A stretch of 38,566 nucleotides of DNA from Bacteroidia bacterium (GTDB lineage Bacteria; Bacteroidota; Bacteroidia; AKYH767-A; OLB10): the NCBI GenBank assembly GCA_017995075.1, contig JAGOJO010000017.1, forward strand, positions 1-38,566, given 5' to 3'. Below, piece by piece: positions 22,780 through 38,566 of this stretch (positions are counted from its first letter, which is position 1; the number at the start of each line of letters is the position of its first letter). The notes under the pieces are model-generated. The model made no database searches and was not told where the DNA came from. It worked only from the letters and a program-made list of their open reading frames with translations. The position numbers were made by a program, and so were the translations under genes.

Positions 22780-23547
22780 ATGATAAAGCTTCATAAGCCA
22801 CTTGCCTTTTTCGATCTTGAAACTACCGGTATTACTGTAGGGGCTGATCGTATTGTAGAGATCAGTATATTGAAATTAATGCCTGATGGTTCAAAATCAG
22901 TGCTCACAAAAAGAGTAAACCCGGAGATACCTATTCCCGAGGGAGCATCAAAAGTGCATGGAATCTACGATAAAGATGTAGCAAATGAACCTACATTCAA
23001 GCAAGTGGCTCCGGAGATTTCCGCATTCATAGGCAATGCAGATCTGGCAGGCTATAATTCCAATAAATTTGATATTCCGATGCTGGTGGATGAATTTCTC
23101 AGGGTAGAAATTACTTTTGATATGAAAGGCCGCCGCATGGTTGATGTACAGAATATTTTTCACAAGATGGAGCAACGTACTCTTTCTGCAGCTTATAAAT
23201 TTTATTGCCAGAAGGAAATTGAGAATGCCCACAGCGCCGAGGCCGATATAATGGCTACCTACGAAGTGTTTGTTGCCCAATTAGAGCGCTATCCTGACCT
23301 TGCAAAGGATGTAGACGGGTTACACCAATTTACCGCAATGACGCAAAACGTAGACCTCGCCGGACGCATTGTTTTTAATGAGAAAAAGGAGGAAGTCTTC
23401 AACTTCGGAAAACATAAAGGACGCTCAGTAGCTGAAGTTTTTGAAAAGGAGCCATCTTATTACGATTGGATGCTGAAAGGTGATTTCCCGGCTGAAACAA
23501 AGCAGGTATTGACGGCGCTACGGTTAAGAGGGTTGAGTTCGAAGTAG
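22780..23547 (+). CDS. DEDDh 3'-5' exonuclease (DnaQ-like)
   Basis: The 255-residue protein has a complete DEDDh exonuclease site: D12 and E14 (FFDLETTG), D98 (NSNKFDIPML), H151 and D156 (NAHSAEADI). The domain ends near residue 170. The C-terminal tail (about 205-255: NFGKHKGRSVAEVFEKEPSY, then YDWML) is a small extra module seen on many Bacteroidota DnaQ-like proteins. It is probably a DNA repair or proofreading-type nuclease, but the replicative epsilon role cannot be claimed. It starts 23 bases after the PD40 gene. Its last 145 bases are repeated almost exactly at 27331-27476. Confidence 0.87.
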   Translation: MIKLHKPLAFFDLETTGITVGADRIVEISILKLMPDGSKSVLTKRVNPEIPIPEGASKVHGIYDKDVANEPTFKQVAPEISAFIGNADLAGYNSNKFDIPMLVDEFLRVEITFDMKGRRMVDVQNIFHKMEQRTLSAAYKFYCQKEIENAHSAEADIMATYEVFVAQLERYPDLAKDVDGLHQFTAMTQNVDLAGRIVFNEKKEEVFNFGKHKGRSVAEVFEKEPSYYDWMLKGDFPAETKQVLTALRLRGLSSK

Positions 23548-23548
23548 A
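23403..23548 (+). repeat. Direct repeat, left copy: 3' end of the exonuclease gene
   Basis: This 146-base stretch, ending one base past the exonuclease stop codon, recurs at 27331-27476 with two mismatches by eye (23412 A to 27340 G; 23530 G to 27458 A). The copies are 3,928 bases apart and bracket the first giant LamG gene. Confidence 0.95.
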
Positions 23549-23853: not shown

Positions 23854-26800
23854 ATGAAATTTGTTGGTTTGATTTCACTGACATTGTTTATTTCTTTTGT
23901 CAGTTATGCTCAACTTTCACAGGATGGATTGTTGTTCGATGGAATTGATGATCGTGTGATAGTTCCTTTTAATTCAGCTTATAGTGTAGGAGCTGGGGAT
24001 ATTACTATTGAGGCAATTATCAGAGCCGATTCTATTTCGGGAGGGTCGTTTCATGAATATCTTGTTACACAGTATTCTACATCTGGGGCAACCGGATTTG
24101 CATTTGAATTGGATTATAACGGTAACCCACGATTTACTGTGAATGGTATTGGTTACAGCACTTCAACTCCGAATAGTGTTCGCGATGGTTTATGTCATCA
24201 TATAGCTGTTTCTCGTAAGGACACTATTTTAAGTTTCTATATAGATGGAGTATTATTACCATGGAATTTTAATTCAAATACGTTTATTAACTCAGCGAAT
24301 AACCTTTGTATTGGTTCCCGTGATTTTATTTCAAGTCCAAGGACCTTCAATGGACTAATTAAAGAAGTGAGAATTTGGAATGTAGCCCGAACACAATCAC
24401 AGATATTGTCATTCATCAATACTGTTGTACCTGCCAGCTCTACAGGACTTATTGGATATTGGCGGTTTAACAATATTTCAGGCCAAAATGTAACAGATAT
24501 GTCGCTTTTAGGAAATGATGGTGTTCTTGGAAATTCATCTGCAATCGAATTGCGTGATCCAGTGATAGGAACTGGTTGCCCATCATGTTTGCAAACTGCT
24601 GCAGTAGTTACATCGATTGGGCCGACTTCATTTTGTATCGGTGATAGTGTTTTGTTGTCTGCGAATACAGGGCTCGCATTTTCTTATCAATGGCATAAAA
24701 ATGGAGTTCCTATATCTGGTGCGTTTTCTTCAACTTTTTATGCAAAGACAACAGGAACTTATTCAGTAAAATTGGTAAATTCAGGGGGATGCACCTCTTT
24801 TTCAAATGCCGTGGATGTAGTCCAACTTCTTGATAATGCCGGTGGCATAACTTGCGACGCATATTATATTGGCTCATGGGCTTGTCTGAATGGTGGTGGG
24901 AATTACCGGACATTAAGTGCAGCAATAGGATCAGGTTATACCTATCAATGGACGAGAAATGGCGCAATTCTTCCCGGTAAAACAAATTACTATCTATATA
25001 CATCTACTCCAGGTGTATATAATTGTATAGTTGCTGTTGGTAATTGTTCAAGGATTACCACAGATTTTACGCTTGGTGAAAATCCGGTATATATATTAAG
25101 TCAAGGTGTGCCGACATCATGTTCGTTACCCGTGCAGCTAACTGCTTCTCGCCAATATGGAAATTCAAATACTAATACTATCTATACCTGGAAGGAATGG
25201 GGGGTTCCGGTGGTAACTTCAAACAGCTCTAGTTTTCAAGCAACTCACACTGGCTTGTATACTTGCACAGTCACGGATGCCGTTTGCCCTGATAGCGTTA
25301 CTGCTAATCCCAAATATGTAAGTATTGGTCAGCTGCCTTCACCACTGATTGGTCCAGGTGCCGCTCAAACGGTAAGTGATTGTAGTTTTTCATTAATGAA
25401 TTTATTTTTACAAGATTTATCAGGAGGGTTATATCCGAATGACCCTACAATTACCTCTATATATTGGATGTATAATAATTCACTTCTTCTTAGCGGTACG
25501 AATCAGTCAATATGGGTACATAAAAGCGGCTATTATTATGCATCAATAAGCTCTTCTGTCTGCTTGCCAGTTAATAATAGCCTGTCCCCAAAGATTGTTT
25601 TGCTAACCAAATCTTTTTTCCCTCCCCAGATTTATCACGGTTCTCTTACAAATTGTACGCAAGTTTCTTTAAGTGTGGATTCCTATTGGTTAGGATATCA
25701 ATGGAAACGTAATGGTTTAAATATTCCGGGTGCTACTAATCATAACTATACCGCTACTCAGAGCGGTAGTTACACATGTGAGTTGTTCAATGATTGCGGT
25801 TCGGTAATAACATCAGCTAAAACTGTTACAATTATTGGGTCAACTCAAGGATTTATTTCAGCTCCCAATGGAACAGTGGTTTGTTCTAATTTAAGTGTAA
25901 TGTTAAAGGCACCAACAGGTGCTGGAAATTCCTATGAATGGAAACTAAATGGAAATAGCATATTAAATGCAAATAACAGTAGTTATACAACAAATATTCC
26001 TGGCGTGTATACTTGTTTGGTTACCACTACCTGCAATACTTTTCTATCAAACCAGATAACGCTTATTTCAGGTCCAACTGTGCCCTCTACACCAACATCA
26101 ATACAAGGGTCTATATTAATTTGTCCGGGTTCAAACAATGTGGTATATAGTATTTCACCGGTTTTGGGTGCTACTGGTTATATTTGGACTATCCCTGCCC
26201 TTTCTGGCATCAATTTGGTTTCTGGGCAAGGTACTAACAGTATTAGCGTTGATTTCACAACTTCTTTTGATTCTCTATCATTATCTGTGGTAGCGACTAA
26301 TATCTGTGGATCAAGTTTTCCGGCAGTAAAAACAATTTATTCCCTTTTGCCAGCAAAACCTGGTGCGATTTCCGGGTTGACAAATGGTGTTTGTTCTTCA
26401 ATTCAAACATATTCAATTTCCTCTGTTAGTCAAGCTACTTCTTATTCCTGGACTATTCCTGTTGGCTCTACGATTGTTGGTGGTCAGGGAACTTCTTCAT
26501 TGAGCGTCTCTTATCCGTTAAACTTTGGATCGGATTCACTAAGAGTAGTTGGAATAAATTCATGTGGAGTAGGTAGTTCAAGAGCTGTTTTTATTAAAGG
26601 CCGCCCATCAACTCCTCCTACCATTAGCGGCGCAATAAATGTATGCGCCGGACAAACCGGCTTAAATTATACTATCAGTCCGGTGTATGGCGCCACATCA
26701 TATGCTTGGACCAAACCAACCGGCGCGACAATTACTAACGGTCAGGGTACTACGCAAATTGTCATGACTATGGGGGCTGCTTCGGGGGCACTAAAAGTGA

Positions 26801-27120
26801 AGTCGTCCAATTCCTGCGGAGTGAGTTCCAATAAAACACTTGCCTTGAATGTGGTTTGCAGAGAGGAAGAAATGTTGGTTGAATCTCCAATTACTGTTTT
26901 CCCCAATCCTTCAAGTGGTGTTTTTCAATTAAGTAAACCAGAGGATTCTATAGATCCTGTTGCTGTTTTCGTTTACAATAGTACAGGCGAACTGGTTGAA
27001 CAGTTTGAAATGGTCGATGAAATGGAATATGAAATTGGATTGAAATATAGTGCCGGCCTTTATCTCATGAAAATTCACTCAGCTAGTGGTAGTAGTTATA
27101 CGAAGTTGTTGAAACTTTAA
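23854..27120 (+). CDS. Giant T9SS surface protein: LamG, Ig-like and PKD-like repeats (copy 1)
   Basis: The 1,088-residue protein has a signal peptide (MKFVGLISLTLFISFVSYAQ). A LamG/concanavalin-like domain spans about 22-236 (LLFDGIDDRVIVPF, then FNGLIKEVRIWN, GYWRFNN). GCPSC follows at 241-245. Ig-like repeats near 250-322, 333-405, 415-488, 593-660 and 668-738 carry the pattern YQW..NG..I.GA...Y.A...G.Y.C. Three PKD-like repeats (about 750-830, 838-915, 920-1001) carry GAT.Y.WT.P.GA.I..GQGT. The C-terminus is a type A sorting domain (VFPNPSSGVFQLS, then SAGLYLMKIHSASG). It should be a surface adhesin or matrix-binding protein exported by T9SS. Base composition is AT-richer than the core genes. 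It lies between two copies of the exonuclease 3' end. Confidence 0.88.
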   Translation: MKFVGLISLTLFISFVSYAQLSQDGLLFDGIDDRVIVPFNSAYSVGAGDITIEAIIRADSISGGSFHEYLVTQYSTSGATGFAFELDYNGNPRFTVNGIGYSTSTPNSVRDGLCHHIAVSRKDTILSFYIDGVLLPWNFNSNTFINSANNLCIGSRDFISSPRTFNGLIKEVRIWNVARTQSQILSFINTVVPASSTGLIGYWRFNNISGQNVTDMSLLGNDGVLGNSSAIELRDPVIGTGCPSCLQTAAVVTSIGPTSFCIGDSVLLSANTGLAFSYQWHKNGVPISGAFSSTFYAKTTGTYSVKLVNSGGCTSFSNAVDVVQLLDNAGGITCDAYYIGSWACLNGGGNYRTLSAAIGSGYTYQWTRNGAILPGKTNYYLYTSTPGVYNCIVAVGNCSRITTDFTLGENPVYILSQGVPTSCSLPVQLTASRQYGNSNTNTIYTWKEWGVPVVTSNSSSFQATHTGLYTCTVTDAVCPDSVTANPKYVSIGQLPSPLIGPGAAQTVSDCSFSLMNLFLQDLSGGLYPNDPTITSIYWMYNNSLLLSGTNQSIWVHKSGYYYASISSSVCLPVNNSLSPKIVLLTKSFFPPQIYHGSLTNCTQVSLSVDSYWLGYQWKRNGLNIPGATNHNYTATQSGSYTCELFNDCGSVITSAKTVTIIGSTQGFISAPNGTVVCSNLSVMLKAPTGAGNSYEWKLNGNSILNANNSSYTTNIPGVYTCLVTTTCNTFLSNQITLISGPTVPSTPTSIQGSILICPGSNNVVYSISPVLGATGYIWTIPALSGINLVSGQGTNSISVDFTTSFDSLSLSVVATNICGSSFPAVKTIYSLLPAKPGAISGLTNGVCSSIQTYSISSVSQATSYSWTIPVGSTIVGGQGTSSLSVSYPLNFGSDSLRVVGINSCGVGSSRAVFIKGRPSTPPTISGAINVCAGQTGLNYTISPVYGATSYAWTKPTGATITNGQGTTQIVMTMGAASGALKVKSSNSCGVSSNKTLALNVVCREEEMLVESPITVFPNPSSGVFQLSKPEDSIDPVAVFVYNSTGELVEQFEMVDEMEYEIGLKYSAGLYLMKIHSASGSSYTKLLKL

Positions 27121-27227: not shown

Positions 27228-27329
27228 CACGAATCCATATTCCCCAATTTCCCCACATTCCCCATCACAATCTTCAAATCATTCCAGACTTTGAAATCTT
27301 TGGCGTATAAAAGGTTGAGGCAGTTGACC
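27228..27329 (-). pseudogene. Gene-end remnant on the - strand, copy A
   Basis: Read on the - strand, this stretch encodes NLLYAKDFKVWNDLKIVMGN and then VGKLGNMDS followed by a stop. A diverged relative lies at 35991-36078. The reading frame cannot be extended upstream because it meets the exonuclease fragment at 27331. The pattern Y-x-K-D-F-x-V-W-x-D-x-K-I-V loosely recalls the last residues of polyprenyl-phosphate sugar transferases, but I cannot identify the family with confidence. Confidence 0.55.
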
Positions 27330-27330
27330 C

Positions 27331-27476
27331 CTTCGGAAAGCATAAAGGACGCTCAGTAGCTGAAGTTTTTGAAAAGGAGCCATCTTATTACGATTGGATG
27401 CTGAAAGGTGATTTCCCGGCTGAAACAAAGCAGGTATTGACGGCGCTACGGTTAAGAAGGTTGAGTTCGAAGTAGA
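27331..27476 (+). pseudogene. Displaced copy of the exonuclease 3' end
   Basis: The stretch repeats 23403-23548 with two mismatches. The reading frame stays open through to the same stop codon: one change is silent (AAA to AAG, Lys) and the other turns a Gly into Arg near the end. There is no start codon or exonuclease domain, so it is a fragment and not a gene. The repeat ends one base after the stop codon. Confidence 0.93.
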
Positions 27477-27557: not shown

Positions 27558-27587
27558 ATCCGTAAAATATATAGATATTTTACGGAT
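27558..27587. promoter_or_regulatory. 30-bp palindromic operator-like element 1
   Basis: ATCCGTAAAATAT (27558-27570) is a perfect inverted repeat of ATATTTTACGGAT (27575-27587) with a 4-base centre. It lies about 105 bases upstream of the AAA ATPase start and has the symmetry of a dimeric repressor site. Confidence 0.65.
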
Positions 27588-27692: not shown

Positions 27693-28829
27693 ATGATAGA
27701 AAGACAGCTGTTGAAACAAATTTTAAAACGTTTGAGTGATAAAAAGGCAGTTATACTTTTAGGGCCCAGGCAGGTGGGGAAAAGTACATTACTGCAAATG
27801 ATGTCTACTGCTTTGCCCAAGCCGATCGCCTGGTGGGATGGTGATGAAGCGGATATCCGGGTAATGCTGCAGCAGCCAACTTCGGCCAAACTAATAACAT
27901 TTATTGGTAACAACAAAACTGTTGTGATTGATGAAGCACAAAGAATAGAAAATATTGGTGTTTGTTTAAAGTTGATAACAGATAAATTGAAAGACGTGAA
28001 GGTAATAGCAACAGGTTCTTCGTCTTTTGAATTGGCAAACAAGATCAATGAGCCATTAACAGGTCGAAAATGGCAGTATAATCTGTATCCGCTTTCTTTT
28101 GGGGAAATGGTTCAGCATACTTCATTGATGGAAGAACAGCGATTGCTTGAGCATCGTTTGATATATGGTTATTATCCTGAAATTGTAATTTCGGAGGCAG
28201 ATAAGGATATACGGTTAAAGGAATTAGCAGATAGTTATCTGTACAAGGATATATTAATCTGGGGGCGGATTCAAAAACCAGATAAACTGGAAAAGCTGGT
28301 ACAGGCGCTGGCGTTTCAGGTTGGTCAGATGTATAGCAATTATGAATTGGGTCAGGTGTGTGGGTTGAATTCTGAAACAGTTGAATCGTATATCCAATTA
28401 CTTGAAAAGGCATTTATAGTATTCCGGTTACCCTCTTACAACCGAAATCAAAGAAATGAACTAAAGAAAAGTTATAAGATTTATTTTTATGATAATGGAA
28501 TACGAAATGCGGTAATCAATCAGTTTGCTTCTGTTCATTTGCGAAATGATATTGGTCAGCTATGGGAAAATTGGTTCGTCAGTGAACGAATAAAGTACCT
28601 GAATAATTTACAAATCAAAGCGACATCTTTTTTTTGGCGTACCACTGCTCAGCAGGAAGTTGATTATATAGAGTCTGTCAATGGGGATTTGAGTGCTTAT
28701 GAATGTAAGTGGAGTATAAAGGCAAAGGGAAAAATCACAAAGGCATTTATTAATTCATATCCGGAAGCTTCTACGCAGGTTGTTACTCCTGATAATGCGT
28801 TTGAGTTTTTGTTGGAGAGAGAGGTGTAG
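27693..28829 (+). CDS. AAA ATPase with DUF4143 domain
   Basis: The 378-residue protein has an AAA_14 ATPase domain with Walker A GPRQVGKST (24-32), Walker B TVVIDEAQ (76-83) and a sensor-like ATGSSS (107-112). A winged-helix-like region follows (about 195-250: NYELGQVCGLNSETVESYIQ). The C-terminal DUF4143 part keeps YDNGIRNAV and a D-x12-ExK arrangement (D324, E337, K339: EVDYIES, then YECKW), reminiscent of PD-(D/E)xK nucleases. Such ATPases are common, scattered and frequently horizontally moved in Bacteroidota. Their function is not firmly known. The gene stands alone between two giant LamG genes behind paired palindromes. Confidence 0.87.
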   Translation: MIERQLLKQILKRLSDKKAVILLGPRQVGKSTLLQMMSTALPKPIAWWDGDEADIRVMLQQPTSAKLITFIGNNKTVVIDEAQRIENIGVCLKLITDKLKDVKVIATGSSSFELANKINEPLTGRKWQYNLYPLSFGEMVQHTSLMEEQRLLEHRLIYGYYPEIVISEADKDIRLKELADSYLYKDILIWGRIQKPDKLEKLVQALAFQVGQMYSNYELGQVCGLNSETVESYIQLLEKAFIVFRLPSYNRNQRNELKKSYKIYFYDNGIRNAVINQFASVHLRNDIGQLWENWFVSERIKYLNNLQIKATSFFWRTTAQQEVDYIESVNGDLSAYECKWSIKAKGKITKAFINSYPEASTQVVTPDNAFEFLLEREV

Positions 28830-29094: not shown

Positions 29095-32000
29095 ATGAAA
29101 AAGGGTTTATTTCTTACTATTCTGTTCGCCGTTCTATTCTTTTATTCAACCGCTATATTTTCCCAATACTCCACTAATGCCTTATATTTTGATGGAGTAA
29201 ACGATAGAGCAACCGCCTATGGGAATCCTGCTTATAGTGGATTGCTCAATGGTGATTTTTCCATTGATTTTTGGTTTAGACCTGATAGTGGTGTAGGTAG
29301 TTACAATATTTTGTCAATGTGGGATACTACGGCAAATATGGGATTTAAAATTGTTATGTACGCCAATGATATTTATGCATCTACAAGTTACTCCGTTAAT
29401 TCATTTTATAGTATTTCAGAGGTTCTGCCGAACTCCATTTATAATGGGGAATGTCATCATATTGCGTATGTAGTTCAAGGGAATAAAAGAAAGCTATATG
29501 TTGATGGTGTTTCAACTTTAAACTATAGTCAGTCCAGTTGGAATGTTCCTCCCATAGTTATTCACGAGATATTATTTGGCACAGATCATACTCCATCCAC
29601 TTACTCGCCATATAAAGGGATGTTATCACGTTTACGTATTTGGAAATATGCATTGACGCAGTTTGATATAATTAACTCGTTTTCTAACTCAGTGTCTCAA
29701 CCAATAAGTAAATTAGTAGCTGATTGGAAATTTGAAAATAAATACAAACAAAAAATAGAGGATTATTCATTAATTCAAAATCATGCCGTTAAGGGATTGT
29801 CATCTATAAGTGAAACTTCTGATCCTGTATCTACAGGTGGTTGTCAGAGTTGTACTGCCACTAGTGTAAATATACAGAAGCTTAGCAGTACTTCTTTTTG
29901 TGCCGGGGATAGTTGTACGCTTAAAGTTAAAATTCTTCCTGGCTTTAGTTGTCAATGGTATAAAAATGGAATTGCTATTGCAGGTCAGACAGATTCTTTA
30001 TTGGCGGCAAAAACGGGAGGAGTATATTCTGCCAGATTTACAAATGGGATGAACTGCAGAAGATATTCTAATGCTGTATTGGTCAGCATCTATTTTAGTG
30101 ATATTACTAAGCCGAAAAGATTGGGTGAAAGTCCAACATGGAATGCTTCGGCTGCTTGTTATTGGACCGGTCGTAAAGATACATTGCAGGTAGCTAAAAA
30201 TGTTTTATATTCTTATCAATGGTATAAGTCAGGAGTACTTATTCCAAACGCAACTTCTTACAAGCTAGCAATAACTGATACAGGAGAATATACCTGCCTG
30301 GTGAGTACAGCTTCCTGTTCAAAAATGAGTTATGGGTATGATTTTTATCCACTGGTGGTTGATGTTCTACCTTTAACAACGCCGCTGACATGTATGGACA
30401 CACTGGTAACTCTTGAAGCAAACTTGCCATGGTCTTACCAACCACAATATATTTGGAAAGCGAATGGTACGGTAATTCCAAACGCCACTACATCAACCAT
30501 AACCACTTCTGCTACCGGTAATATAACCTGTACTGTTAATGATTCAAACTACTGTCCGGCTACGACTACATCGCAGTCAATCTATGTTGCCCATAATCAA
30601 AGCCCTAATTTATTTGTAAGAGTCAATTATCTTCCGTTAAGTTCAAGTCAGACAATTAGCCTTTGTACAGGTGTTGACATGGCTTTATCCAAATTGGTGG
30701 ATCAATATGGTTTAAGTTATCTTGATGCTGGTTTGCAATCAATTAATTGGTCTGTTGATTTTCCGGTTGTAATCCACGCTCCGGATGAAATCACTGTTTT
30801 GCAATCAGGTACCTATGACGCATTCTACTCTACACTTTGTGGAAGTGGACATACTGGTAAAACAATATATTTTACAGGTCCTGGAGTACCAGCACCTAGT
30901 ATTACAGCAGGGACTCCTGGATGTAATACTGTACAGTTAACATTAAATACTTTTCTCGTTTCCTGGCCATCCTATCAATGGTATAGAGACAGTGTGTTAA
31001 TTCCCGGAGCAACCGGTTCTTCATATTTAGCATTACAGGGAGGAAATTACATATGTGTTTTAGATAATTCATGTGATACATTAGGGTCTACCCCAATTAG
31101 GGTAAATACCTTGTTGGAAACTTACAACATTGTGCCGGTTAATGGAACAGCAATATGTGGCGGAATTGGTAAGTTACTTACTGCAACTGGTGGAAATGCT
31201 TTTCAATGGCGGAAAAATGGGAATGCAATAAGCGGTGCAACATTGGGGTACTATACTGCTACAACTACAGGAAAGTATACTTGTAGAATTACCGGAACTT
31301 GCGGGGTGGTTTTTTCCGATACAATCACGATCACGAATGGAACTGCTCTGGTTCCTCCGGTAGTAGGCATCCAGGGTCCCGATTCTGTTTGTCCCAACAA
31401 TAGTATACACCACTATTCCATTGCAACAGTGCCTGGTTCTGTTGCTTACTCCTGGAAATTACCAAATGGTGCAACTTTGTATTCCCCGGAAGATTCAAAT
31501 GAAGTTGATATTAAATTTTCCTATGGGTTTCAAGGAGGAATGATCTATTTTCTGGGAATAAATAATTGTGGTGCAGATACATTGAGTAGTCTTTATGTAA
31601 ACAGTTTGCAGCCACCGAAACCAAAATTGTTATCGGGTGATGTATATGGACTTTGTAATCTTACAGAATCTTTCGTGGTAGATTCAAATTCCTTAGTTAC
31701 TAACTACGTCTGGACTGTCCCGAATGGGGCTACGATCTTGTCCGGTCAAGGTACTGATAGCATTGTGGTGCAATTTGGAAGCGGATTATACTCCGGCAAT
31801 TTAACAGTATATGGTGAAGCAACTTGTAAAAATTCGGATGTGTTAACCGTCCAGTTAACAGGTGCACCTGCTAATCCGGGACCAATAAGTGGTCAGACGA
31901 ATGTTTGTGCTAATCAATCCAACCTTGTGTACACGATTCCACCCGTAATTGGTGCGACATATTATCAATGGACTCTACCACCTGGAGCTGTCCAGCTTTC

Positions 32001-32382
32001 ATTTGGGAATTCAAATTCGATGACAATAAAAATGGGGACAACGACAGGTCCAATAAGTGTTAGGCCGGTAAATGTCTGTTATAATGCTCAAACTTCGATA
32101 AAGTACTTAAATATAGTTTGCAGAGAAGAGGAGCAAATTTCTCAACCTGTAATGCAAATGAATCTCACGCAGGAGAACCATCATCTCACTGTTTCAGTAG
32201 AAGGTATGGATCAACCGGCAATTGTTTCGCTGTATAGTTCTTTAGGTCAATTAATCGGAAAGGAATTGATTGAATCGACCCAAGACGGAATTGCAGTATT
32301 CGGAAATCTAAGCCATGGTATTTATATGGTTGAGGTTAGTTCGGGAGATCAACGGATTGTTGGCAAGGCAATAATTAATTAA
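29095..32382 (+). CDS. Giant surface protein: LamG, Ig-like and PKD-like repeats (copy 2)
   Basis: The ATG at 29095 is preferred to a TTG six bases earlier, because it begins the signal peptide (MKKGLFLTILFAVLFFYSTA, cut near IFSQ). The 1,095-residue product repeats the layout of copy 1: LamG (ALYFDGVNDRATAYGN, then LSRLRIWKYAL, ADWKFENKY), GGCQSC, Ig-like repeats (QWYKNGIAIAGQTDS, QWYKSGVLIPNATSYK, QWYRDSVLIPGATGSSY, QWRKNGNAISGATLGYY), PKD-like repeats (VAYSWKLPNGATL, NYVWTVPNGATILSGQGTDS, YYQWTLPPGA) and a CREEE linker. The tail (LYSSLGQLIG, then LSHGIYMVEVSSGDQ) resembles a type A sorting domain but lacks the usual FPNP start. It is probably still a T9SS substrate; the altered tail leaves some doubt. 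Confidence 0.85.
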   Translation: MKKGLFLTILFAVLFFYSTAIFSQYSTNALYFDGVNDRATAYGNPAYSGLLNGDFSIDFWFRPDSGVGSYNILSMWDTTANMGFKIVMYANDIYASTSYSVNSFYSISEVLPNSIYNGECHHIAYVVQGNKRKLYVDGVSTLNYSQSSWNVPPIVIHEILFGTDHTPSTYSPYKGMLSRLRIWKYALTQFDIINSFSNSVSQPISKLVADWKFENKYKQKIEDYSLIQNHAVKGLSSISETSDPVSTGGCQSCTATSVNIQKLSSTSFCAGDSCTLKVKILPGFSCQWYKNGIAIAGQTDSLLAAKTGGVYSARFTNGMNCRRYSNAVLVSIYFSDITKPKRLGESPTWNASAACYWTGRKDTLQVAKNVLYSYQWYKSGVLIPNATSYKLAITDTGEYTCLVSTASCSKMSYGYDFYPLVVDVLPLTTPLTCMDTLVTLEANLPWSYQPQYIWKANGTVIPNATTSTITTSATGNITCTVNDSNYCPATTTSQSIYVAHNQSPNLFVRVNYLPLSSSQTISLCTGVDMALSKLVDQYGLSYLDAGLQSINWSVDFPVVIHAPDEITVLQSGTYDAFYSTLCGSGHTGKTIYFTGPGVPAPSITAGTPGCNTVQLTLNTFLVSWPSYQWYRDSVLIPGATGSSYLALQGGNYICVLDNSCDTLGSTPIRVNTLLETYNIVPVNGTAICGGIGKLLTATGGNAFQWRKNGNAISGATLGYYTATTTGKYTCRITGTCGVVFSDTITITNGTALVPPVVGIQGPDSVCPNNSIHHYSIATVPGSVAYSWKLPNGATLYSPEDSNEVDIKFSYGFQGGMIYFLGINNCGADTLSSLYVNSLQPPKPKLLSGDVYGLCNLTESFVVDSNSLVTNYVWTVPNGATILSGQGTDSIVVQFGSGLYSGNLTVYGEATCKNSDVLTVQLTGAPANPGPISGQTNVCANQSNLVYTIPPVIGATYYQWTLPPGAVQLSFGNSNSMTIKMGTTTGPISVRPVNVCYNAQTSIKYLNIVCREEEQISQPVMQMNLTQENHHLTVSVEGMDQPAIVSLYSSLGQLIGKELIESTQDGIAVFGNLSHGIYMVEVSSGDQRIVGKAIIN

Positions 32383-32515: not shown

Positions 32516-34640
32516 AACTGTAGTTATATTTAAACCCGCTGAAAGATATTATATGTTGAAATCTGATTTGCATAAATACCATTCTATAAATAACCCATCG
32601 CTGGTTTCAGGAGGTTTTAAACACCTGTTTTGTTTTTTCATTTTATGGGTTTGTCTGGGGGGTGAGTCGTCACACTTGTATTCTCAAACTACCGGTTCAA
32701 TGTTTACATTTGATGGAGTGGATGATCGTGTAACTATTCCGGCACATCCTTCGTATGCTCTTGGTGCTGCGGACTTCACTATAGAATTCTGGATGAAACT
32801 TGATGCGCCTGCACCCGTTGGAGACAGAATTATTTTTTCGATGCGGGATTCTGCGACTATGTTAGGATTTTGGATCTATAATGATAGTAATTCTATCCAA
32901 CTGCGATATTTCACTCCGTTTGGAGGTGCTACTATTATAAGTTCTACAACTTTAAACCAGCTATATGACAGCCAATGTCATCATTATGCTTTTGTGAGAA
33001 AAGGAAGTCAAATTAAAATTTTTATCGATGGTGCATTGAATAGGACATATAATCCTGCTAATGCACCTGTTATTTCTTCCTATGATATTATTTTGGGAGG
33101 AAGTAAAAATTACAGTGCAGGAAGTTTCGCATTTAAGGGTTCGCTTCGAGATTTTAAAATTTGGTCAGTTCCGCTATCACAGTTTCAGATTTTGAGTTGG
33201 TTGAGAAATACAACGAATAACCAGTTGACCAACCTCATCGGCGCATGGAAATTGAATGGGAACTACAAACAAAAAGTAGAAGATAAATCCCTTATCCATA
33301 ATCATGGAAATAGAGGAATTACAGCTGCATCTGAGTCGGCAGACCCTATTGCTATTACAGGTTGCCCCGATTGTATAATGCATTCTGTTCAGTTGAGTGC
33401 ATTAACTTCAACAGCTGTTTGCGCTGGTGATTCAGCTGCTTTGAAAGTTCCTTTATTACCCGGTGAAACTTGTTTGTGGTACAGGAACGGTGTATTAATA
33501 AGCGGTGCAGTTGATTCGGTTTATAAAACGCCAAATTCAGGGATTTACTCGGCTAAAGTATTTAACTCGTCCGGTTGTTTTGTCTATTCTAATGCCCTAA
33601 CTGTAAAAAAATTGTTGGAGGAGATTGGTGTGCCAAATTGTACCTCTTGTTTTGGAGTCAATGGTGATTATTGTTGGTGGAGTGGAAGGAATGATACATT
33701 GATAATGCCGTTTTATGGTGGATACACCTACAAATGGTATAAGGACAGCGTTTTAATTCAAGGGGCAACAGCCAATACTCTTCCTGTTTCAACCGCAGGT
33801 AAGTACTATTGCGTCGTTCAGGCAAATGGATGTTATAAGTCCTCCTTTGAAGCAGCCTATCTTCCACTTGTTGCTAAGATATCTGCAGTCACTCCTTCAA
33901 CAACTTGTTTGGATACATTAGTGACTTTAAGAGTAGATCAGAATATGTTTAATAATCCCCGGTATCAGTGGAAGGTAAATAATTCTGTTATTCCCGGTGC
34001 TACGTTTAGCCAATTAACAACGAGTTTAACGGGCTTAATTAATTGTACAGTTACGGATTCGTTGATTTGCCCAACACCTGCAGTTGCTTCGCATTACGTT
34101 AGTCACGGTGTGCTCCCGAATTTGTATATCAGCTATAAAGATCAGTTGAATATAAATGGACATGATTATAGCGATTGCTCTTCATATAATGGCGGCGAAT
34201 TAAAGCTAGTTGATGCGCATAATTTAGAGTTCGACGATGCAGGACTGATTTCCACCCATTGGTCTGGAGGAATTGGACCTCCGACTTTAACTACTCCCAC
34301 AAGAGCCGCTGTATCTAATACGGGAGATTATTATGTAAATTATACAACAGCCTGCGGATCGGGAAGTGCGTTTGCTAATGTGTTTTTTGCAGGTCCTAAT
34401 ACTGTTAAGCCTGTCGTAGTTGGAGCTACATCTTCATGCAATCCGATTTCTCTTGGTACAGAGTTTACATCACTTCTATGGGACGCCTATCAATGGTATA
34501 AAGATGGTTCACCAATTGCAGGTGCTGTATTCAATTCATATGTTGCTACTGAATCCGGTGATTATAGTTATGCACTATGGAATGATTGCGATTCTATTAT
34601 GTCTTATTCAAAGAATGTCAATATTCTTGGTTATGCTTCA
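32516..34640 (+). repeat. Tandem paralogue unit, first copy
   Basis: From a shared sequence about 37 bases upstream of the start codon (TGTAGTTATATTTAAAC) onward, this block aligns with 36418-38566 at an offset of 3,903 falling to 3,900 bases. Some stretches are almost identical and others strongly diverged. Confidence 0.85.
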
Positions 34641-35897
34641 ATAAATGCTCCAAATGGTACAATAGTTTGTCAAGGAGTTTCAAAAGCTTTGGTTGCCTCG
34701 AGTGCTGTGGGATGTCAATGGAAATTGAATGGGGTGAATATACCCGGAGCAACCGGTGGAACATTTATGGCAACCACCCCCGGTAATTATACTTGTCAGA
34801 TTACTAATTCTTGCGGTACGTTTACGTCAAATGTCATCACTATCACCGTAGGAATTTCTTTGAGCACTAATCCCGGCACATTGAGCGGACCAACTACTAT
34901 TTGCTCAACTACAGGAAATAAGGTTTATTCGGTATTGCCCGTTGTGGGAGCTACTTCATATACCTGGGTTTTTACAAATGGACCAACTATTATTTCCAAT
35001 CCGGATTCAAATGTTGTTACTGTGAATTTTCCTGCTAATTATCAAGGAGGAAAAGTGGTGGTTTATGCCAATAACAGTTGCTCTTCGTTTAAAGTTGATT
35101 CGCTTTTGTTGAATTCTTTGAATGTAATATCTCCTGCTTCAATTCTTGGAATTACCCATGCTAGCTGCGGCTCATCAAGCTCATTTTCTTGTCCGGTTGT
35201 TCAGAATGCAACTTCCTATAACTGGGTAGTTCCATCAGGTGTTGTTATCCTTAGTGGGCAAGGTTCAACGAATGTTATAATTACATTTCCTAATACTTCT
35301 GGTACAGATACAGTTAAGGTAAGTGCTTCTAACTCCTGTTCAAGTAGTACTTATACTTCTAAGGTTGTGCAGCGTTCGCCATATCCTGCATCCGCAATTA
35401 CCGGTCCATCTTCCGTTTGTGCATTTCAAACAGGTTTAGGTTATTCAATTCCAGCAGTTATTGGTGCATCTAGCTATGTCTGGACAGTATCTTCCGGAGC
35501 AAACATAATTAGTGGGCAAGGGACAAACGCTATTCAAATGAACATGGGTAATTCCGCAGGGTACGTTTCTGTTGCGGGAGTGAATACCTGCGGTAGCGGA
35601 CAAGCAAGCAATAAGTCTATCCAGGTAGTGTGCAAGGAGGGAAAAGTAATGCCAGGTTCTCAAATGTTAATTGCTTCTCCAAGTCCGTTCATTGAAAATT
35701 TTACAGTCCGGATTTCCGGGAAAACGAATGGGATTTTACAAGGTTTTGTGCTCAATATGTTGGGTCAGATTGTAGAGCGTTTTGAATTCAAGGACGGGGT
35801 TGCCGATCCACTCGGAAAAGAGCTTTCTGCCGGATTATATATTGTTAAAGTTGAGGCGGAGAGTGGTGTTCTGACCACAATGATTGTTAAAAATTAG
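32553..35897 (+). CDS. Giant T9SS surface protein: LamG, Ig-like and PKD-like repeats (copy 3)
   Basis: The ATG at 32553 is chosen over a TTG at 32511 because copy 4 begins at the homologous position. The 1,114-residue protein has an unusually long N-terminus before its hydrophobic core (MLKSDLHKYHSINNPSLVSG, then FKHLFCFFILWVCLGG and cleavage near YSQ). LamG follows (MFTFDGVDDRVTIPAHPSYA, then GSLRDFKIWSVPL, GAWKLNGNY), then GCPDC, Ig-like repeats (LWYRNGVLISGAVDS, KWYKDSVLIQGATAN, QWYKDGSPIAGAV, QWKLNGVNIPGATGG) and three PKD-like repeats (SYTWVFTNGPTI, SYNWVVPSGVVILSGQGS, SYVWTVSSGANIISGQGT). The type A-like end has SPSPFIENFTVRI and LSAGLYIVKVEAESG. It is the closest relative of copy 4. 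Confidence 0.88.
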   Translation: MLKSDLHKYHSINNPSLVSGGFKHLFCFFILWVCLGGESSHLYSQTTGSMFTFDGVDDRVTIPAHPSYALGAADFTIEFWMKLDAPAPVGDRIIFSMRDSATMLGFWIYNDSNSIQLRYFTPFGGATIISSTTLNQLYDSQCHHYAFVRKGSQIKIFIDGALNRTYNPANAPVISSYDIILGGSKNYSAGSFAFKGSLRDFKIWSVPLSQFQILSWLRNTTNNQLTNLIGAWKLNGNYKQKVEDKSLIHNHGNRGITAASESADPIAITGCPDCIMHSVQLSALTSTAVCAGDSAALKVPLLPGETCLWYRNGVLISGAVDSVYKTPNSGIYSAKVFNSSGCFVYSNALTVKKLLEEIGVPNCTSCFGVNGDYCWWSGRNDTLIMPFYGGYTYKWYKDSVLIQGATANTLPVSTAGKYYCVVQANGCYKSSFEAAYLPLVAKISAVTPSTTCLDTLVTLRVDQNMFNNPRYQWKVNNSVIPGATFSQLTTSLTGLINCTVTDSLICPTPAVASHYVSHGVLPNLYISYKDQLNINGHDYSDCSSYNGGELKLVDAHNLEFDDAGLISTHWSGGIGPPTLTTPTRAAVSNTGDYYVNYTTACGSGSAFANVFFAGPNTVKPVVVGATSSCNPISLGTEFTSLLWDAYQWYKDGSPIAGAVFNSYVATESGDYSYALWNDCDSIMSYSKNVNILGYASINAPNGTIVCQGVSKALVASSAVGCQWKLNGVNIPGATGGTFMATTPGNYTCQITNSCGTFTSNVITITVGISLSTNPGTLSGPTTICSTTGNKVYSVLPVVGATSYTWVFTNGPTIISNPDSNVVTVNFPANYQGGKVVVYANNSCSSFKVDSLLLNSLNVISPASILGITHASCGSSSSFSCPVVQNATSYNWVVPSGVVILSGQGSTNVIITFPNTSGTDTVKVSASNSCSSSTYTSKVVQRSPYPASAITGPSSVCAFQTGLGYSIPAVIGASSYVWTVSSGANIISGQGTNAIQMNMGNSAGYVSVAGVNTCGSGQASNKSIQVVCKEGKVMPGSQMLIASPSPFIENFTVRISGKTNGILQGFVLNMLGQIVERFEFKDGVADPLGKELSAGLYIVKVEAESGVLTTMIVKN

Positions 35898-35990
35898 GGA
35901 AGTTAACTTCTCGTTAATTGCGACACCTTGAGTGCAGTAGAATAAACTTTCATTGAAATTTGTGCAAAGATGAAATCTTGAGTGCATCAC

Positions 35991-36078
35991 TTTCCCAACA
36001 TCCCCACATTCCCCATCACAATCTTGTGGTTGTTCCAGACTTTGAAGTCTTTGGCGTAGAGAGGCGGGAATAGTTGAA
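35991..36078 (-). pseudogene. Gene-end remnant on the - strand, copy B
   Basis: Read on the - strand, it encodes LFPPLYAKDFKVWNNHKIVM and then GNVGMLGK followed by a stop. This parallels copy A at 27228-27329 (shared LYAKDFKVWN and KIVMGNVG). A stop codon closes the frame a few codons upstream, so it is a fragment. Both copies lie just downstream of a giant LamG gene. Confidence 0.55.
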
Positions 36079-36115
36079 CTATTTAAAAGAACAAGTTACC
36101 TTTCCAATTGGAGTA

Positions 36116-36123
36116 GGGGGGGG
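36116..36123 (+). repeat. G8 homopolymer upstream of LamG copy 4
   Basis: Eight consecutive G in AT-rich intergenic DNA, about 330 bases before the copy 4 start. Such runs can slip during replication. Confidence 0.7.
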
Positions 36124-36455
36124 CACCGGACTCTAATAGATTTGCCCTTGATAAATGGATTTACACCTCGCTTTTTATCGATTTTACCAATTATAGGAGA
36201 TTGTTATACGTTTGTTTTATGGATTTCTTACATTTGAGTAGATTATTTTATCAATGAAGAAGTTTATGGCTAAAGCGTATTCGCTCAGTCTATGTTTTGT
36301 AGCCCCGAGATTTATCTGTTCGGAAATAAACCTGGATACACGTTTATATTTCTGGATATATAACCAGTTGGTTGCTCCCGGAATTGATAATTTTTATAGT
36401 CGGCCTGATGTTCGCATAAGCTGTAGTTATATTTAAACTTGAAGAAAGATATTGA

Positions 36456-38566
36456 ATGATGAAATTTGATTTAAATAAATACCATTCTATAAATAACCCA
36501 TCCCTGGTTTCAGGAGGTTTTAAACACCTGTTTTGTTTTTTCTTTTTATGGATTTGTCTGGGGTTTGAGTCATCACGTTTGTATTCTCAAACTACCGGTT
36601 CAATGTTTACATTTGATGGTATTGACGATCGCGTAACAATTCCTGCTCATCCATCTTATGCCATTGGTTCAGGAAACTTCACAATAGAATTCTGGATGAA
36701 GCTGGATGGCCCTTATTCAGGTAGTGATGGAGTCATATTTTCTATGCAGGATTCAGCCACCCGTAACGGGGTGAGTATTGTTGCCAGTAGCAATTGGGTG
36801 ACCCTTTATATAAAAAATGGTCTGATCGCTCATGGTTATTATGCAATGCCATTAGGTTCACTTTATAATGGAAATTGTTACCACTATGCATTTGTAAGAT
36901 CAGGTAATCTGATAAAAGTATATGTAGATGGGGCTTTGGCAAATACATTTACAATTACTGCTGCTCTGAATATTTCGTCATATGATATATTATTTGGTGG
37001 CAGTAAAAATTATGGTGCAAGTAGTTCGCCATTTAAAGGCGCACTTAGAGATTTTAGAATATGGTCAATTCCATTGTCTCAGTTTCAGATTTTAAATAGG
37101 TTAAGAAATACAACGAATAGCCAGTTGACCAACCTCATCGGCGCATGGAAATTGAATGGAAATTTCAAACAAAAGGTTGAAGATGTATCCATGATCCAAA
37201 ATCATGGTAACAGAGGGAGTACTGCGGCTTCAGAGACGGCTGATCCATCCGCCATTTTTGGTTGCCCCGATTGTATAATGCATTCTGTTCAGTTGAGTGT
37301 ATTAACTTCAACAGCTGTTTGCGCTGGTGATTCAGCTTCTTTGAAAGTGCCTTTATTACCCGGTGAAACTTGTTTGTGGTTCAAGAACGGTGTTTTAATT
37401 AACGGTGCAGTTGATTCTGTTTATAAAGCGTCAAATTCTGGGATTTACTCGGCCAAAGTATTTAACTCGTCTGGTTGTTTCGTCTATTCAAACCCCATAA
37501 CTGTAAAAAAGTTATTGGAGGAGATTGGTAACATAAGTTGTAATTCCTGCTATGGTGTCAATAGTAAATTTTGTTGGTGGCAAGGCAGGAATGATACTTT
37601 GACAATGCCAGTATATGGTGGATACACTTATAAGTGGTATAAAGACAGTGTACTAATTCCGGGTGCAATATCCCATAAACTTCCGATTTCAGCTCCTGGA
37701 AAATATTATTGTACTGTAGAAGCTAATGGCTGTACAAAGTCGTCAAATATAGCAAGCTACTTTTCGCTTGATGCAAATATTTCTGCTGTAACATCTCCTC
37801 AAACTTGTCTTGATACATTGGTGACGTTAAGAGTGAATCAGAACATGTATCATAGTCCGCAATATCAGTGGAAGGTAAATAATTCATTAATCTCTGGAGC
37901 AACATCAAGTCAGATAACAACAAGTTTAACGGGAGGAATTCACTGTACTGTGAGGGATTCAATGATTTGTCCATCACAAGTCAATTCTGCAACTATCTAT
38001 GTAAACCATGGTGTTGCACCTGATTTATATATCAGCTACAATGATGAGTTAAATACGGGTGTTCGAATATACAGTGACTGCTCGTTTTTGGGTGGGGGGG
38101 TACTAAAGCTTGTCGATTCATATAACATCGAGTATTCAGATGCTGGGCTAATATCAACTTCATGGGGTGGCCATCCTACAATTTTTCCAATAACTCCAAC
38201 TTTAGTGCCTATATCCTTTACTGCTGATTATATTGTGTCCTATACTTCAGCTTGTGGTACGGGTTCCAATAATGCCCAAGTATTGTTTGCCGGTCTCGGC
38301 GCTGATAAACCTGCGATTGTTGGTATGTTAGGATCATGCAATCCAATAACACTAAGTGTTGAAGATCCTTTTTTAGATTGGAGCGCTTGTCAATGGTATA
38401 AGGATGGTTCACCAATTGCAGGTGCTGTATTCAATTCATATGTTGCTACTGAATCCGGTGATTATAGTTATGCGCTTTGGAATGATTGCGATTCTATAAT
38501 GTCTGATTTAAAACATGTTAGTGTTAATAGTAATATCAATATCACGGCTCCCGATGGAACAATAGT
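36456..38566 (+). CDS. Giant surface protein: LamG and Ig-like repeats (copy 4, 3' end beyond the window)
   Basis: The frame is open from ATG 36456 to the window end, 703 codons so far. The N-terminus (MMKFDLNKYHSINNPSLVSG, then FKHLFCFFFLWICLGF) and the LamG domain (MFTFDGIDDRVTIPAHPSYA, then GALRDFRIWSIPLSQFQI) match copy 3. GCPDC follows, then Ig-like repeats (LWFKNGVLINGAVDS, KWYKDSVLIPGAI, QWYKDGSPIAGAV). The PKD-like repeats and sorting domain expected from its relatives would lie downstream and are not seen. A run of seven G at 38094-38100 within the coding sequence, absent from copy 3, is currently in frame. Confidence 0.85.
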   Translation, partial: MMKFDLNKYHSINNPSLVSGGFKHLFCFFFLWICLGFESSRLYSQTTGSMFTFDGIDDRVTIPAHPSYAIGSGNFTIEFWMKLDGPYSGSDGVIFSMQDSATRNGVSIVASSNWVTLYIKNGLIAHGYYAMPLGSLYNGNCYHYAFVRSGNLIKVYVDGALANTFTITAALNISSYDILFGGSKNYGASSSPFKGALRDFRIWSIPLSQFQILNRLRNTTNSQLTNLIGAWKLNGNFKQKVEDVSMIQNHGNRGSTAASETADPSAIFGCPDCIMHSVQLSVLTSTAVCAGDSASLKVPLLPGETCLWFKNGVLINGAVDSVYKASNSGIYSAKVFNSSGCFVYSNPITVKKLLEEIGNISCNSCYGVNSKFCWWQGRNDTLTMPVYGGYTYKWYKDSVLIPGAISHKLPISAPGKYYCTVEANGCTKSSNIASYFSLDANISAVTSPQTCLDTLVTLRVNQNMYHSPQYQWKVNNSLISGATSSQITTSLTGGIHCTVRDSMICPSQVNSATIYVNHGVAPDLYISYNDELNTGVRIYSDCSFLGGGVLKLVDSYNIEYSDAGLISTSWGGHPTIFPITPTLVPISFTADYIVSYTSACGTGSNNAQVLFAGLGADKPAIVGMLGSCNPITLSVEDPFLDWSACQWYKDGSPIAGAVFNSYVATESGDYSYALWNDCDSIMSDLKHVSVNSNINITAPDGTI
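38094..38100 (+). repeat. G7 homopolymer inside LamG copy 4
   Basis: The run spans codons GGG-GGG-GTA following GGT. The frame stays homologous to copy 3 on both sides, so the gene is in the full-length state here. A change of one G would truncate the protein. Confidence 0.7.

Follow-up and report, generated by a model that had tools for sequence, protein, structure and literature searches.

Copies 3 and 4 of a tandem array of surface-protein genes are probably an old, diverged pair in which several short tracts have been exchanged by gene conversion (segmental exchange). The window analysed is the whole of contig C89 (38,566 bp), part of a metagenome-type genome of 3.24 Mb (176 contigs, 80% complete), and it carries four related surface-protein genes, all on the forward strand. 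Copy 1 (23854-27120) encodes 1088 aa with a LamG domain (Laminin_G_3), Ig-like regions, PKD_6 domains and a type A sorting tail of the type IX secretion system (T9SS; Pfam/NCBIfam), and is 34% identical to copy 3 at the amino-acid level. An AAA_14/DUF4143 ATPase gene (Pfam; 27693-28829, forward strand) separates it from copy 2 (29095-32382), which encodes about 1095 aa of the same architecture. Copy 3 (32553-35897; 1114 aa) probably starts at the ATG at 32553 rather than at 32516; it has the LamG (Pfam match at residues 54-213, numbered from that ATG), Ig-like and PKD_6 parts and a weak T9SS tail. Copy 4 (from 36459) is cut by the contig end at 38566 after about 702 aa. These genes had been called giant adhesins in an earlier note on this DNA, a term that does not fit proteins of about 1,100 aa, which are large rather than giant.

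Export of copies 3 and 4 by the T9SS is probable, judging from sequence signatures. Against the NCBIfam TIGR04183 cut-off of 23 bits, copy 1 (28.0) scores above and copies 2 (21.3) and 3 (22.3) score just under, while the C-terminal end of copy 4 lies beyond the contig. The genome encodes the T9SS core protein GldM; the genome search gave no match for SprA, but the control searches were silent too. The LamG block alone found no significant match among PDB sequences. Together with the best database matches, the T9SS parts suggest an organism of the class Bacteroidia or close to it.

Copies 3 and 4 share 70% protein identity. Over the 699 codons that can be aligned, the 3' third of copy 4 being beyond the contig end, they share 73% nucleotide identity with a pS of 0.56 and a pN of 0.19, and in 30-codon windows pS ranges from 0.05 to 0.93. 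That nearly identical blocks alternate with strongly diverged ones, as the earlier note had seen by eye, is borne out by a two-state synonymous profile and by permutation tests. The profile was obtained with an HMM from the 467 degenerate codons that specify the same amino acid in both copies; two states are favoured over one (2dlnL = 60.6), delimiting four conserved tracts (156, 54, 216 and 69-71 nt) separated by diverged stretches. Tract 1 (32518-32714, partner 36421-36617) runs from the 5' leader through the signal peptide to the start of LamG, the part delimited by the HMM being 32559-32714. Tract 2 (33204-33257, partner 37104-37157) lies directly after the LamG domain, tract 3 (33354-33569, partner 37254-37469) covers a linker and the first Ig-like region, and tract 4 (34503-34573, partner 38403-38473) is an exact match of 71 nt in a later Ig-like region. 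Synonymous differences number 3/44, 0/16, 6/62 and 0/23 in tracts 1 to 4, and 46/90, 15/25, 106/190 and 8/17 in the successive diverged stretches. The pS is 0-0.13 in the conserved tracts and about 0.5-0.8 in the diverged stretches, which are saturated at synonymous sites, most of them at 0.71-0.78 and the last short block at 0.52. The two principal diverged blocks, the LamG body (32715-33203, partner 36618-37103; 58% amino-acid identity) and the middle of the gene (33570-34502, partner 37470-38402), both have a pS of 0.71.

The local comparisons from which the mosaic had originally been suspected also stand at base resolution. Positions 34501-34560 and 38401-38460 differ by exactly one mismatch, at 34502, as had been counted; the preceding 60 bases, described as having little similarity, carry 25 mismatches (58% identity), and the following 60 bases carry 8. 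The signal-peptide DNA, said to be almost identical, has 10 or slightly more mismatches over 126 nt (about 92% identity), and in the LamG body, the middle of which was said to differ, nucleotide identity drops to 38-70%. Tracts 1 and 3 contain substitutions (93% identity between the copies). A difference in age between tracts (9/106 vs 0/39 synonymous differences) is not significant (p = 0.11).

This mosaic is unlikely to reflect a chance clustering of synonymous identities. When synonymous states are permuted along the gene, the longest conserved segment has a p of about 5e-5; taken individually, tracts 1 and 3 reach about 1e-4, tract 4 reaches 0.005 and tract 2 only about 0.1. Shuffling states strictly within amino-acid classes yields no arrangement as extreme in 10,000 trials. 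Four-fold-type codons differ at 4 of 49 positions in the tracts vs 86 of 116 outside, a contrast measured on tracts picked from the same data, and a segment test of these codons that is independent of the chosen tracts again gives 0/10,000. GC3 is equal in and out of the tracts.

The neighbouring paralogues tell exchange from constraint. Where the amino acid is the same, copies 3 and 4 use the identical codon at 136 of 146 positions in the tracts and at 147 of 321 outside, a contrast that is partly circular as the tracts were chosen on it. The corresponding contrasts with the other copies are free of this circularity: copy 3 and copy 2 agree at 17/53 positions in the tracts and 82/184 outside, and copy 3 and copy 1 at 22/48 and 68/150. 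Since copies 1 and 2 show no synonymous conservation in the tracts, these regions are not generally constrained. Selective constraint without recombination, be it domain-specific or on codons or RNA, would fit the presence of the signal peptide and Ig-like cores in conserved tracts, but its probability is negligible, as synonymous divergence itself falls in the tracts but does not fall there in copies 1 and 2, and as permutation within amino-acid classes argues against it. Domain-specific or codon-level constraint as the sole cause is ruled out by the synonymous tests together with the copy 1 and copy 2 controls. With constraint eliminated, what remains is that copies 3 and 4 exchanged sequence with each other, or that their forerunners in separate strains did so. 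The earlier note had proposed gene conversion or segmental exchange and had named domain-specific constraint as the explanation that could overturn it; the proposal is now well supported.

Mosaicism was not found as a general trait of tandem Ig-type pairs among those tested in this genome. The control pair at locus L063 (contig C140, 1392-2705 and 2858-4171), 66% identical in amino acids, is evenly diverged without a mosaic (p = 0.52, runs z +2.7), and three more distant pairs likewise gave none. Within the array, no tract-wise exchange was seen for copies 1 and 2, and copy 2 has no tract-wise DNA mosaic relative to copy 3; one short segment of 10 codons between copies 3 and 2 is marginal (p = 0.04, with four pairs of copies tested).

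How might this pattern have arisen? Copies 3 and 4 probably stem from an old duplication, or from old alleles that came to be stacked side by side. Later, at least three and probably four stretches of about 54 to 216 bp would have been copied between them, either as gene conversion, through homologous recombination of the RecA type that leaves no crossover, or through exchange between strains. Such copying would have removed synonymous differences from the leader, the signal peptide, the stretch just past LamG and two Ig-like regions, whereas the body of LamG and the Ig-like region in the middle would have stayed diverged. The direction, the enzyme, the timing and any effect on binding belong to what we infer, and a comparison of two sequences, one of them partial (copy 4), does not separate donor from recipient. 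No close orthologue turned up among 60 relatives, the family genomes, the species genomes in genome_contigs or viral_contigs, the best matches having about 28-41% identity.

It is conceivable that the order of events was the reverse, namely that a recent duplication came first and that blocks, LamG in particular, were then replaced by diverged homologous segments taken from other strains. The position of tracts 1 and 2, which immediately flank the LamG domain, is in keeping with this scenario, as are remnants of neighbouring gene ends between the copies, which suggest several insertion events here. However, replacement would then have had to affect all the diverged sequence, which amounts to about three quarters of the aligned gene. 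In addition, the diverged blocks of copies 3 and 4 are about equally distant from copy 2 (10 vs 17 sites in LamG, 18 vs 16 in the middle block) and most are similarly saturated; such balanced distances are expected from one old split rather than from foreign import into one copy. The homology between the copies extends only about 35 bp 5' of the start codon and then ends, unlike in a recent duplication, and the intergenic DNA flanking the two genes is not similar. A search of the 80%-complete genome turned up no donor. We regard block replacement as unlikely and prefer a history in which the copies are old and the short tracts were copied recently, given the balanced distances to copy 2, the similar saturation, the extent of divergence and the dissimilar flanks.

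Upstream of the array, relatives share a gene order of a large rpoC-like gene (so named by gene size and position), DUF3467, LPG synthase TM, GT2, a PD40 protein and a 3'-5' exonuclease. In the related genomes G001, G002 and G009, the exonuclease gene is directly followed by a convergent glycosyltransferase gene and then by an apparent recR (named from sequence). Here, the adhesin array separates exonuclease and glycosyltransferase, and contig C48, whose start is broken, opens with the N-terminal part of the latter. Downstream of copy 1, at 27331-27476, lies a second forward-strand copy (146 nt, 98.6% identical) of the stretch at 23403-23548 that forms the 3' end of the exonuclease gene (22780-23547, same strand). 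Sequence comparison also reveals remnants of the glycosyltransferase 3' end, on the reverse strand, after copy 1 (27240-27307) and between copies 3 and 4 (35991-36058). These gene ends look like the traces that repeated insertions, or unequal recombination, would leave at this slot. One might go further and propose that the junction between exonuclease and glycosyltransferase serves as an insertion slot that stacks diverged alleles of a surface-protein gene from different strains, each insertion leaving flanking gene-end copies behind, and that the stacked genes trade segments around the variable LamG domain. We hold this extension to be doubtful; if true, slot stacking would let Bacteroidota diversify their surface without any dedicated recombinase. 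The 146-nt exonuclease-end duplicates flank copy 1, and loss or amplification of copy 1 could follow. Apart from G002, no second exonuclease tail occurs in the other family genomes searched. In G002, the exonuclease gene is split at its tail over L080 and L184, whose contigs overlap by exactly 141 nt; this overlap may be an assembly branch only.

The earlier note had viewed the array as a candidate surface-variation locus. The mosaic on which this view rested is real, but the reshuffling of domains is not borne out: the tracts homogenise the signal peptide, the LamG end and two Ig-like regions, which makes the proteins more alike and is the opposite of creating novelty. A dedicated system by which a population shuffles segments among the copies would be compatible with the surface-protein architecture, the T9SS-type tail on copies 1-3, the tandem placement and the mosaic pair, yet we find it very improbable. 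Antigenic variation draws on donor cassettes for an expression locus, and a DNA search of the 80%-complete genome revealed no reservoir of silent cassettes. Moreover, exchange is confined to two of the four neighbours, the substitutions in tracts 1 and 3 indicate that the underlying events are not fresh, and the array yielded no identifiable recombinase, its intervening gene encoding the AAA_14/DUF4143 ATPase. Within the preferred reading of an old pair with short conversion tracts, the homogenised flanks of LamG may stay similar enough for further exchange.

An artefact of assembly or strain mixing is highly improbable. The metagenome assembly is fragmented and incomplete, the contig ends inside copy 4, and a chimeric join at tract 4 is conceivable, as the contig end lies 93 nt past this tract. 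Against this, tracts 1-3 are internal to the contig and have differences of their own, a jump into copy 3 would continue as copy 3 whereas the sequence diverges again past tract 4, and the last 167 nt have no match in other contigs of the genome.

Gene conversion between paralogues is an already known process, of which copies 3 and 4 are a new example. In Mycobacterium tuberculosis, conversion tracts between paralogues have a median of 101 bp (IQR 33-244), which the tract lengths in copies 3 and 4 resemble, and in the ESX/PE/PPE genes such short tracts between adjacent or distant paralogues likewise lead to mosaic surface or secreted proteins; the events there were placed on a phylogeny using long reads, whereas a single genome is considered here (PMC13061034). 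Closest in secretion route, as predicted here, are the Kgp/RgpA/HagA adhesin domains of Porphyromonas gingivalis, where variation of T9SS-exported surface proteins has been ascribed to domain rearrangement, allelic exchange and gene conversion; that work spans many strains, whereas the present case is a tandem pair from one genome and belongs to another protein family, LamG/Ig/PKD_6 (PMC5266723). The opa genes of Neisseria also undergo recombination and gene conversion among surface-protein paralogues of one genome, but they are dispersed, number about 11 and are subject to phase variation, while here only two of four neighbours are involved (PMC13183285). The giant1-5 genes of Apilactobacillus kunkeei are likewise consecutive genes for large surface proteins with dS varying strongly along the gene, ascribed to short intragenic recombination, although recombination there occurs between strains at positional homologues and the proteins reach 3,000-8,000 aa (PMC12863079). 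Our literature search found no description of conversion for the LamG/Ig/PKD_6 T9SS-type protein family. In this one genome of an uncultured Bacteroidia-type bacterium, the pair documents clear short-tract segmental exchange between T9SS-type LamG/Ig/PKD genes for surface proteins, and illustrates that conversion can be told from constraint by a simple profile of synonymous sites when neighbouring paralogues serve as controls. If exchange around LamG proved frequent, it would bear on how such bacteria vary their surface ligands.

A minor feature of the array concerns the ATPase gene between copies 1 and 2. A 30-nt near-palindrome lies 5' of it at 27558-27587, with a similar half-site further on, and is possibly a candidate operator.
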